Shown here: piece after piece, positions 48,378-55,503 of the stretch
Position numbering within the stretch: position 1 is the first letter of the stretch
How the letters are laid out: every line of letters starts with the position of its first letter
DNA from: Planctomycetota bacterium
Lineage (GTDB): Bacteria; Planctomycetota; Phycisphaerae; Phycisphaerales; SM1A02
DNA: 64,000 nt
Reading direction: 5' to 3'
Assembly (NCBI GenBank): GCA_022566535.1
Contig: JADFIR010000002.1
Coordinates: 1-64,000 of the forward strand
Translations under genes and position numbers: made by a program
The notes under the pieces: model-generated
Databases searched by the model: none
What the model was told of the DNA's origin: nothing
The model's input: the letters and a program-made list of their open reading frames with translations, nothing else

Positions 48378-48503
48378 CGGTGGCGAAGGAGACGGCCGGG
48401 CCCGTGAGACGGGTGGCCTGTGAACCTGGTCAGGGCTTGATCGCAGCAGCCATAAGCGGTGTCGTCCGAGCCTGCGGTGTCCTGGCCGTCCTCTCCGCCA
48501 CCG
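48378..48503 (+). ncRNA. ffs: Signal recognition particle RNA (small bacterial type)
   Basis: Conserved core GTGAACCTGGTCAGGgcttgatcGCAGCAGCCATAAGCGG; ends pair (cggtggcg...gacggcc / ggccgtc...cgccaccg); immediately upstream of dnaX. Confidence 0.85.
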
Positions 48504-51610: not shown

Positions 51611-53119
51611 ATGCGTTTCGAACTCGGCCAACACATGCGGATGAGCCAGCAGATGAAGCTGGCGCCGAGAATGATCCAGTCGATGGAGGTGCTGCAGATG
51701 CCGATGTTGGCTCTGCAGGAGCGCGTGGACCAGGAGCTGGAGTCCAACATTGCCCTTGAGATTGTCGAGCCGAATGAAGAGTCCGATGAGCAGGACGATC
51801 TTCAGGACAAGCCGCTGGAGGAAAAAGAGCTGGACGTGGGCGACAGCACACCGGATGCGTCGGACGACTGGCAACGGCTCAGCGAGCACGAAGCCGCGAA
51901 TCCGGAAGTATTTGCCGGGCAGGAGTCAACACAAAGCTATTCGCGCTACCGAATGGCGGGAGAGCGCGATCGGAAGATGGACGCCCTGGCCAACATCGCC
52001 GCGCGCGGCCAGAGCCTCAATGAGCAGCTTCTTCAGCAGTGGTCGTTCGCCGAGATCGATCCCGCCACCATCAATGCCGGCAAACTGCTGATCTCCTACA
52101 TCGACGACGACGGCCTGCTCGGGGCGGACCTCGAGACGATCCTCGAGCAGAATCGAAACGTTCCCGGCCTGGATCTGTCAATCGACCGGCTTGAGCAGGC
52201 GTTGCAAGAGATCCAGCAGCGCTTGGATCCCGCCGGGGTCGGCGCCCGTAGCCGTCGCGAGTGCATCCTTCTTCAGATCGATCGATTCCAGAGCGAGCCC
52301 GACCATGACCCGCGCTGGTCCGACGTGCGGCGGCTCATCGAGCAGAGCTACGACGACCTCCTGCAAAATCGACTGCCGAAGATCGCCCAGGAGACCGGCC
52401 TGTCGCTTCAGCAGATTCACGATGCGATGGGGCTGATGCGAAAGCTGAGCATCAGCCCCGGCCGCGATCTGGTTGACGTAGAGGTTCCACCGATCATCCC
52501 GGATGTGATCGTCGAATACGACGAGGAGGCCGACGTGTACGTCGCGTCGCTGCGCGACGGAGTGCTACCGACCCTGGGCATCTCAAAGGAATACGAGAAG
52601 ATGGCCAAGGACCGCTCGCTCGACAAGGCCACGCGGGAGTTCATCGGCAACAACGTGCGCAATGCCCGCTGGCTGATCGACTCCATCGGGCAGCGCAAGA
52701 ACACCATGCTGCGGGTGGTCAATGTCGTGTTGGCGAGCCAGCGCGAGTATTTCGACGACGGCCCACAGTCCCTCAAGCCCCTGCCCATGATCAAGGTCGC
52801 CGATCAGCTAGGCATCCACGTGGGGACGGTCAGTCGCGCCGTGGCCGACAAGTGGCTACAAACGCCGCGAGGTCTTGTCACCCTGCGTCGATTTTTCTCC
52901 GGCGGCACCGAGACTGATTCCGGACAGAACATCAGTTGGGAAGCGATCAAGGCCAAGCTCAAAGAGATCGTCGACGCTGAGGACAAATCCAATCCGCTTT
53001 CGGACGCGGCTCTGGCGAAATCGCTGAAGGAGCAAGGCATCGACATCGCCCGCCGAACCATCGTCAAATACCGCCAGCAGCTCGACATCCCGCCCGCCCG
53101 TCGCCGAAAGGTGTATTGA
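51611..53119 (+). CDS. rpoN: RNA polymerase sigma-54 factor
   Basis: N-terminal Q-rich LGQHMRMSQQMKLAPRMIQSMEVLQMPMLALQERVDQELESN; ARRTIVKYRQQLDIP RpoN box. Confidence 0.96.
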   Translation: MRFELGQHMRMSQQMKLAPRMIQSMEVLQMPMLALQERVDQELESNIALEIVEPNEESDEQDDLQDKPLEEKELDVGDSTPDASDDWQRLSEHEAANPEVFAGQESTQSYSRYRMAGERDRKMDALANIAARGQSLNEQLLQQWSFAEIDPATINAGKLLISYIDDDGLLGADLETILEQNRNVPGLDLSIDRLEQALQEIQQRLDPAGVGARSRRECILLQIDRFQSEPDHDPRWSDVRRLIEQSYDDLLQNRLPKIAQETGLSLQQIHDAMGLMRKLSISPGRDLVDVEVPPIIPDVIVEYDEEADVYVASLRDGVLPTLGISKEYEKMAKDRSLDKATREFIGNNVRNARWLIDSIGQRKNTMLRVVNVVLASQREYFDDGPQSLKPLPMIKVADQLGIHVGTVSRAVADKWLQTPRGLVTLRRFFSGGTETDSGQNISWEAIKAKLKEIVDAEDKSNPLSDAALAKSLKEQGIDIARRTIVKYRQQLDIPPARRRKVY

Positions 53120-53323
53120 CGAGCTGTTAGCTTTCAGCGATCAGCCTCCTGCCGATAGCCCCGGACTTAGCCCGCGGGGGTTGTGGCGGCTGGCGCGCTG
53201 CTCATCAAACGAGCCCCCGGCCGGAGGCCGGGGCTAAAGGCGGGCCGGTGCGCTCAACCAACTCCCATAGCCCCGGACTTCGCCCGGGGATTCTTCTAAC
53301 ACAAGGGCCATGGAGCCGGCCGG
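53077..53323 (+). repeat. Dispersed repeat copy C: rpoN 3' end plus hairpin repeat, with about 100-bp insertion
   Basis: gacgagctgttagctttcagcgatcagcctcctgccgatagccccggactt... and second atagccccggacttcgcccggggattcttctaacacaagggccatggagcc. Confidence 0.8.
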
Positions 53324-53342
53324 CCCCCTTCAACGGGCGGCA

Positions 53343-53407
53343 CATAAGTTACTCTTTCCGTTCAGCATTGCATTGGCCCCACTAGACTGAACTGTTCAAT
53401 CAACTGT
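53343..53407 (+). promoter_or_regulatory. 65-bp conserved block upstream of the GIY-YIG gene, shared with 23530-23594
   Basis: cataagttactctttccgttcagcattgcattggccccactagactgaactgttcaatcaactgt. Confidence 0.6.
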
Positions 53408-53436
53408 TTGGCCGACACCAGACGCATCGGATTCTG

Positions 53437-54192
53437 ATGAAGCAAGCACAGAGTGACTCCTTTCCGGCAGGCGTGGCCAGCGAGCTCAAGACTTACGTCT
53501 ACAGGCTCATCGACCCGCGAAATGGTGAGACCTTCTATGTTGGGAAGGGTAAGGGCAATCGCGTATTTTCTCACATCCGCGCTGAGCAGCACTTGGAGGA
53601 AGGCGATGATCTGGACAACAAGATCAAGCGGATCCACGAGATCCGCGTTGCGGGATTCGAGGTCGCGCATGTCATTCACCGCCACGGGATGGACAAGACG
53701 ACTGCCTTAGAGGTGGAGGCCGCACTTATTGATGCGTATCCCGGGCTCGCCAACCTCGCTGACGGAACGGGCGGCAGCGACTACGGGGTCATGCACGCCG
53801 AGGAGATCATTCGGCGCTACTCTGCCGAGCCAGCAGTGTTCCGACACAAGGCCTTGCTGATCAGCGTCAACAGAAGCGCAACCGAGCGATCCTTATACGA
53901 TGCAACTCGTTACGCGTGGAAGATCAGCAAGTCGCGGGCGAAGGAAGCTGAGGTCATCCTCGCCACCATGCAGGGCCTGATCGTTGGTGCCTTTGTCGCA
54001 GACGATTGGCTGGAGGCGACGGCGGCAAACTTCCCAGGTCGCGCGGAGGGGGACGGCGTGCCCGGCCGTCTTGGTTTCGTTGGGAAGGAGGCACCCGACG
54101 ACATCAAGAGCCTCTATGTTGGGAAGCGTGTGCCGGACGAATACCGGAAACCTGGCGCTGCGAATCCGATCAAGTACACCTGGGGCAAGTAG
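53437..54192 (+). CDS. GIY-YIG nuclease domain protein (LEM-3-like)
   Basis: KTYVYRLIDPRNGETFYVGKGKGNRVFSHIRAE...TTALEVEAALIDAYPGLANLADGTGGSDYG. Confidence 0.88.
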   Translation: MKQAQSDSFPAGVASELKTYVYRLIDPRNGETFYVGKGKGNRVFSHIRAEQHLEEGDDLDNKIKRIHEIRVAGFEVAHVIHRHGMDKTTALEVEAALIDAYPGLANLADGTGGSDYGVMHAEEIIRRYSAEPAVFRHKALLISVNRSATERSLYDATRYAWKISKSRAKEAEVILATMQGLIVGAFVADDWLEATAANFPGRAEGDGVPGRLGFVGKEAPDDIKSLYVGKRVPDEYRKPGAANPIKYTWGK

Positions 54193-54340
54193 CATCGATC
54201 TCCAGCGAAAGGATCGCAGGGGAAAGATTCGGCGAATGGGTCGATTGTGCCGCCCGGGCGGGGTGGAGCCCGCGCCGGGCTTGGATCGGACCCGGGTCTT
54301 CCTCGTCCGCCGCGGCGGACTCGTCAGACCCGGCTTCCCG

Positions 54341-54374
54341 GAAGGAAGCTGAAGGCTGATCGCTGACAGCCGGC
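54341..54374 (-). repeat. Dispersed repeat copy D (short)
   Basis: gaaggaagctgaaggctgatcgctgacagccggc, shares the ctgaaggctgatcgctgacagc core. Confidence 0.6.
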
Positions 54375-54381
54375 AACGCCC

Positions 54382-55026
54382 CTACCAGCCGAAGCGCTCT
54401 TCCGCCCACGGGTCGCCGTGCATGTGGTAGCCGTTTTGCTCCCAGAATCCGGGGGCGTCGGTGTCGCGAAGCTCAATACCGGTGATCCACTTCGCGCCTT
54501 TCCAGAAGTAGAGCCGAGGCACGATTCCCCGCACGGGGTAGCCGTGGTCAGCCGCAAGCTCGTTGCCATCGTGCAGGTAAGCCAGGATGCAATCGTCCTG
54601 CGTGAATTCTTCGAGCGGCACGTTGACGGTAAAGTCCTCGCCCGGCTCGGATGCGGCGTGCTGCAAGACGAAACTCGCTTCGGGTTTGGGTTTGGCCAGG
54701 GCAATGAGCGTCTTGGTCTGCACGCCGGTGAAGATGTTGTCGAGCCGCGACCAATGGGTGACACAATGAATATCGCACTTCACATCGACTTGAGGAAGCT
54801 GCATGAACTCGTCGAAGCTGAGTGTATAGGGGTTCTCACATAGGCCCCACACGCGCAGCTCCCAGGCATCACGATCAATATGCGGCGCCGAACCGAAGTG
54901 CAACACCGGCCACTTGCGGGTGATCGTCTGTCCCGGCGGCGTGCGGGCAGCCCGATCACCGCCGCATCGCTGCGTGTCGCGGCTGATGATCAGGGGGCGT
55001 TGGTATTGCGCTGTTACTTTGGTCAC
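54382..55026 (-). CDS. Sulfite oxidase-like molybdopterin oxidoreductase
   Basis: WELRVWGLCENPYTLSFDEFMQLPQVDVKCDIHCVTHWSRLDNIFTGV...ADHGYPVRGIVPRLYFWKGAKWITGIEL. Confidence 0.92.
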   Translation of the reverse strand: MTKVTAQYQRPLIISRDTQRCGGDRAARTPPGQTITRKWPVLHFGSAPHIDRDAWELRVWGLCENPYTLSFDEFMQLPQVDVKCDIHCVTHWSRLDNIFTGVQTKTLIALAKPKPEASFVLQHAASEPGEDFTVNVPLEEFTQDDCILAYLHDGNELAADHGYPVRGIVPRLYFWKGAKWITGIELRDTDAPGFWEQNGYHMHGDPWAEERFGW

Positions 55027-55080: not shown

Positions 55081-55499
55081 TTATTTCTCAATCGGCGTGA
55101 AGGTCGCACCGCTTTGGACGTAGCAATTCACCATCTGGCCTGCCTGGAAGTCCGAAGCGCTCTGTCGGTCATCAACGGTCACCCACATGGGGACCGACAC
55201 GTCAAGGAGCACACGGGGGGCCTGCTCATCAACGGCCAGGACCGTGCCCTGGACGATGCGCGGCGCGCCCCACATCGGCTCGACGAACCGCCCGCCTGCC
55301 TGGGCGGTGTGTATGCGAAGGGCTTCGGCCTCAATGATGCCCTTGATCCGCTTGCCGACGGGCGTGAGAACCCCATCCGCAGGAGTCCTCGCAACCAGAT
55401 GCATTCTGTATTCGGTGCCCGCGACCGCCAGCACTAGCAGTCCATCGCCACGCTCGAGTACGACGCCACGAGCAATTGCATCGGTTTGGACATTTGTCG

Positions 55500-55503
<4 letters not shown>
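55081..55503 (-). CDS. Hypothetical protein
   Basis: 140-aa ORF overlapping the trpG-like stop by 4 nt in the same operon orientation. Confidence 0.6.

Follow-up and report, generated by a model that had tools for sequence, protein, structure and literature searches.

Inversions with duplicated ends and dispersed hairpin repeats

Duplication associated with inversion (DDAI) is known from Helicobacter (Furuta et al., 2011, as cited in PMC8963470) and was also reported in Thermus (PMC8963470). Dispersed hairpins of the REP/REPIN type are linked to RAYT genes (PMC3733652, PMC3116915) and have a tag, GTAG or CGTC, at the base of the stem (PMC3733652). The window analysed here, i.e., the whole stretch of 64,000 nucleotides from a planctomycete contig, shows features of both. 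As in DDAI, a block is inverted, the sequence of one breakpoint is found inverted at the other and the neighbouring genes are swapped. In contrast to the described DDAI cases, each breakpoint is an intergenic region between convergent genes that is made up of small repeats; overlaid on the pattern are a third copy and a 2.6 kb indel, and the event dates back far enough for several species to have it in common. The repeat copies A/B and C are most probably the inverted duplicated ends of an inversion of about 26-29 kb that was fixed in the genus, and they probably stem from the rpoN 3' flank.

Anatomy of the repeat copies

The copies and the genes that define their surroundings are the following:

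19167-19733: frr (TIGR00496)
19697-21931, plus strand: parallel beta-helix gene, adjoining frr; ancestral convergent neighbour of rpoN
23768-23911, minus strand: copy A, with rpoN tail (about 45 nt coding), heptamers, hairpin and terminal box
23912-26528, minus strand: 2.6 kb segment with propeller/dockerin-type genes (23915-24934, 25126-26307), flanked by the direct repeats B and A
26529-26646, minus strand: copy B, with short rpoN tail, heptamers, hairpin and terminal box, 3' of gene B
26690-27334, minus strand: gene B, without family match; ancestral partner of 54382-55026 / 55081-55503
26690-53119: block that includes gene B and rpoN at its ends, in the opposite orientation to that in the outgroup genome G010
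51611-53119, plus strand: rpoN (sigma-54; Pfam Sigma54_DBD/CBD/AID), its final approximately 16 codons being the source of the rpoN tail
53071-53323, plus strand: copy C, with rpoN 3' end, heptamers, three GC hairpins and the TTCTTCTAACACAAGGGCCATGGAGCCGG box
54341-54374, minus strand: D, a TCAGCNN heptamer tract only, without rpoN tail
54382-55026, minus strand: molybdopterin oxidoreductase gene

In A, B and C the elements follow one order, i.e., rpoN tail, stop codon, TCAGCNN heptamers, at least one AGCCCCGGGCTCYGCCCGGGG hairpin and TTCTTCTAACACAANGGCCATGGAGCCGG. That these are true repeats, as stated in the initial annotation, was borne out: all three share TGACGAGCTGTYAGCTNTCAGCGATCAGCCT with 0-1 mismatches (23835-23865, minus; 26596-26626, minus; 53117-53147, plus), a match for which 0 are expected in shuffles, and A and C match in inverted orientation over 77 nt, ungapped and with 92% identity (23835-23911 vs 53071-53147). 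As this match reaches back into rpoN, the rpoN coding part of A amounts to about 45 nt; all three copies do begin with an rpoN tail, and that of A is longer than had been noticed. B begins at 'CGGCGAAAGGTGT' with a tail shorter than that of A, and C overlaps the 3' end of rpoN itself. C additionally contains a further hairpin and a 112-nt inner part, which is also present in the left copy of the congener G001 and is missing from A, B and the left copy of the congener G003. The ends of A, B and C differ on the 5' as well as on the 3' side. D, which had been listed as a short copy, shares the heptamer tract and lacks the rpoN tail.

Each copy was said to lie 3' of a coding sequence in the same orientation, and this holds: A lies 4 nt downstream of the stop codon of 23915-24934 (minus), B lies 44 nt downstream of 26690-27334 (minus) and D lies directly 3' of 54382-55026 (minus). 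The arrangement follows from the position of both breakpoints between convergent genes. The predicted folds of the copies are stable. A search of the window against Rfam gave no family at the copies, the sole match being the small bacterial SRP RNA (RF00169) at 48393-48491 (plus), just upstream of dnaX. Elsewhere in the window, the open reading frame 59857-61503 (minus) contains six tandem units of about 210 nt at 60050-61390, which are 72-85% alike.

Gene order in relatives and the inverted block

The block of 26-29 kb is inverted in this planctomycete genus compared to the outgroups, all compared genomes being draft assemblies. The outgroup G010 (contig C67) holds both ancestral junctions on a single stretch of 40 kb, in the order [8022...frr]-rpoN(-)-recR-dnaX-...-27325-gene B-[55081, 55500, 56214], with the window block inverted. 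A convergent frr or beta-helix gene follows rpoN in G006, G007, G010 and G011, a comparison in which the query '18903_19760_-' is the antisense reading of frr, and likewise in G042, G043, G049, G050, G053, G054, G055 and G059. An independent search found the same facing arrangement in 16 named Phycisphaerales/Planctomycetota records (L259-L323), some of which may duplicate the genomes just listed. At the other end, gene B is convergent with homologues of the oxidoreductase gene 54382-55026 in G015, G056 and G054, and with homologues of 55081 in G007, G010, G022, G053, G055 and G059. These gene orders, with G010 holding both ancestral junctions, show that the order in the window is derived. The breakpoints fall within 21932-26689 and 53120-54381, the same places as the copies, with A/B at the left breakpoint and C at the right one. 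Relative to the ancestral order the rpoN tail with its flank is present as an inverted duplicate, in A/B on the minus and in C on the plus strand.

No copies were found in the outgroups at either site, apart from one match in G056, and no rpoN tail was found there beside gene B. In G056, 85 nt located about 330 nt behind rpoN match the distal module with 79% identity; the other outgroup rpoN 3' flanks are too diverged for comparison. As the distal module has only two good copies in G056, a match behind rpoN is unlikely to be due to chance, and it suggests that the rpoN 3' flank was the source of the duplicated segment.

Copies in congeners and the 2.6 kb segment

The core of the element is kept in three congeners. 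G001 is collinear with the window to the left and right of each site; it has C at rpoN, and behind gene B there is one element only. In G003 both new junctions are present, on two contigs, and in G002 the contig carrying rpoN ends within the element. The homologous segment of G003 is longer (about 560 bp) and reaches the promoter of the next gene, and behind gene B the junction of copy B is conserved there. Inner parts, namely the 112-nt module, heptamers and about 170 nt in C, were gained or lost among the congeners. The 2.6 kb segment between B and A is whole only in this genome and is missing from G001 and G003. A is a mosaic, its 5' half resembling C (with the long rpoN tail) and its 3' half the left copy, and the left copy of G003 is B-like in its 5' and A-like in its 3' part; both would be the outcome expected if the direct repeats B and A had recombined.

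Genome-wide distribution of the repeat parts

The initial annotation regarded the rpoN-tailed family as dispersed. A search of the 3.36 Mb assembly, with C or the consensus as query, gave A, B and C only, all on one contig, and the remaining matches are the GC hairpin alone or the heptamer tract alone. The GC hairpin occurs at 48 sites, 25 and 23 by strand, and the reversed control pattern at 0. Placement relative to open reading frames from a simple codon-usage gene caller was scored for 43 of the 48 sites, leaving out overlapping reverse-strand matches of the same palindrome and counting each of two double sites once. Four of these 43 lie inside called open reading frames. Convergent gaps hold nine hairpins and divergent gaps three; from the gap lengths, a convergent share of 34% would be expected (P = 0.004). 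The positional part of the suspected bias was thereby supported, while the orientation part was not significant (15 hairpins in the same vs 7 in the opposite orientation in tandem gaps, p = 0.13). This distribution fits a terminator-like or REP-like dispersed hairpin. As in REP/REPIN systems it is a short, GC-rich, intergenic palindrome that is dispersed and biased to convergent gene ends. Unlike these, with its approximately 48 sites it has no GTAG/CGTC tag, and no RAYT linkage was seen at the four of eight Y1_Tnp loci checked; moreover, the rpoN tail stands outside the dispersed unit, and the whole unit comprises just A, B and C.

Origin of the copies

Before the inversion, rpoN would have faced the beta-helix gene and frr, and gene B the oxidoreductase gene, as two convergent pairs. 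One break would have fallen inside the rpoN 3' flank, so that this flank, together with a few final codons of rpoN, came to lie at both new junctions, whole rpoN with its flank at the C junction and a tail fragment with the flank at the gene B junction. We infer that the two breakpoints gained their copies together with the inversion, out of the rpoN flank, probably by a DDAI-like breakpoint duplication through a staggered break with fill-in or an equivalent route. The hairpins would be ordinary dispersed terminator- or REP-like repeats that probably end transcription there. Recombination between repeats may have altered the copies afterwards, with loss of the 112-nt inner module and presence or absence of the 2.6 kb segment between B and A. 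A single simple staggered break cannot give all three copies, since B is a third copy with a shorter rpoN tail than A; B, the least well explained part, must either have been duplicated later or be older. Part of the likeness between A and C could also stem from independent insertion, as the distal modules are themselves dispersed.

The reverse order of events, in which part of the rpoN 3' end was first duplicated to a site behind gene B and the resulting pair of inverted repeats then recombined homologously and turned the block around, is rather unlikely. It accounts for the 5' edge of B differing from that of A, and B, with its junction conserved in G003, lies behind gene B and would be inverted relative to the own flank of rpoN in the ancestral order. 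However, the outgroups lack an rpoN tail next to gene B, the segment between A and B stands on the wrong side if it is ancestral, and an extra copying step without explanation is needed. The mechanism offered in the initial annotation, a REP-like or 3'-UTR element spread together with the rpoN tail by a RAYT/IS200-type transposase, is highly improbable. Its REP-like part stands insofar as hairpins are present throughout the genome, preferentially at 3' ends (9 vs 3), and eight Y1_Tnp (RAYT-like) loci are encoded in the genome, yet no hairpin was found near the four of these whose flanks were checked. The sequence ATAGCCCCGG occurs at A, B and C, with ATAG in the hairpin in place of the GTAG/CGTC of known REPs (PMC3733652), and the copies share no fixed end. 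Above all, the rpoN-tailed form is confined to the two junctions of an inversion that is seen against many outgroup genomes, which contradicts a spread with the rpoN tail. The reading as a conserved regulatory RNA of the 3'-UTR that was deliberately copied to the ends of several genes is likewise very unlikely: the stable predicted folds and the core kept in three congeners speak for it, whereas the element has no Rfam family, is missing outside the genus and has inner parts that were freely gained and lost between congeners. A plasmid or phage origin was also considered for the segment, and no match was found. The breakpoint duplication described above remains the preferred reading; what the initial annotation had observed was sound and the mechanism it proposed was wrong, the event being of a known kind.

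The distal promoter and attI-like module

An integron combines an attI site with a Pc promoter and gene cassettes with attC sites, the core being GTTRRRY. The distal parts of A and C and the genes that follow them are as follows:

22033-23490, minus strand: 485-aa gene without known family, directly after the A module
23530-23767, minus strand: distal part of A, the same as the rpoN 3' flank of G003, with the same promoter module at its end
53324-53420, plus strand: distal part of C, promoter and attI-like module, ending at ACTGTT|TGGC
53437-54192, plus strand: LEM-3-like GIY-YIG gene of the PD-T4-3 anti-phage defence family (Pfam; PADLOC PDLC04031, 378 bits)

The segment closes with a promoter-like tract of approximately 75 nt, whose conserved end is CTATACTGAACTGTTCAATCAACTGTT. 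In the window this tract lies at 53345-53412 (plus) and 23620-23535 (minus) with ACTGTTAGGC-like ends, and further loci are L344-L354, L097 and L096. The module was aligned at 16 loci in G000, G001, G003, G015, G056 and G075, and in these the similarity breaks off at or just after GTT, the next gene being different nearly every time. At C the gene that follows is the PD-T4-3 gene, a full-length member located directly beyond the new 3' flank of rpoN, and at A it is the gene of the 485-aa protein. The latter product has a PD-(D/E)XK-like 'DGIV...EVK' stretch, and the 3' end of its gene reads through half an attC-like sequence. In G003 the module is followed by an acetyltransferase gene and then by a well-folded attC-like site; this site at the A/B locus comprises 62 nt (L097:620-681) with a strong fold and is followed by a Crp-like gene at the contig end.

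Like attI with Pc, the module has a conserved promoter tract that ends at GTTAGGC-like sites, with unrelated single genes next to it, and like integron cassettes some of these genes have an attC or half-attC. The attC 5' core RCCTAAC lies no more than 60 nt from the stop codon in 4 of 15 post-module genes, vs 0 of 49 and 2 of 447 controls. In contrast to an integron, there are several dispersed module sites per genome, most post-module genes lack an attC, the module core is often GTTNGGC rather than GTTRRRY, and no integrase scores above the model cut-off in G000-G003. A strict screen for attC found none, and a relaxed one gave six candidates, one of them clear, compared to three in shuffled controls. 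For the integron integrase, no match to TIGR02249 above the cut-off was obtained in the draft genomes G000-G003, where only Xer-like matches below it occur. A tyrosine recombinase (C29) near one module was read merely as a phage- or Xer-like open reading frame. It is tentatively proposed that the distal end 'TTCCGTTCAGCATGGCATTGGCCCCGCTATACTGAACTGTTCAATCAACTGTTAGGC' belongs to a set of dispersed, attI-like landing sites that bring their own promoter, each capturing and expressing one foreign gene. Possible captured genes would be the PD-T4-3 defence gene, the acetyltransferase gene and genes for VOC and DUF393-like proteins.

Implications

A convincing mobile repeat that seems to carry the tail of a gene can be the scar of a rearrangement, and it is the gene order of outgroups that reveals this. 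When an inversion has its ends in two convergent gene pairs, no gene is disrupted, and inverted repeats are added, which later recombine. If the attI-like reading is true, the inversion merely doubled one attI-like site, and several genera of this planctomycete family would use the integron principle at scattered chromosomal positions, with no integrase nearby. The promoter with its integron-like junction at several loci would matter more if these were proven to be working dispersed capture sites.
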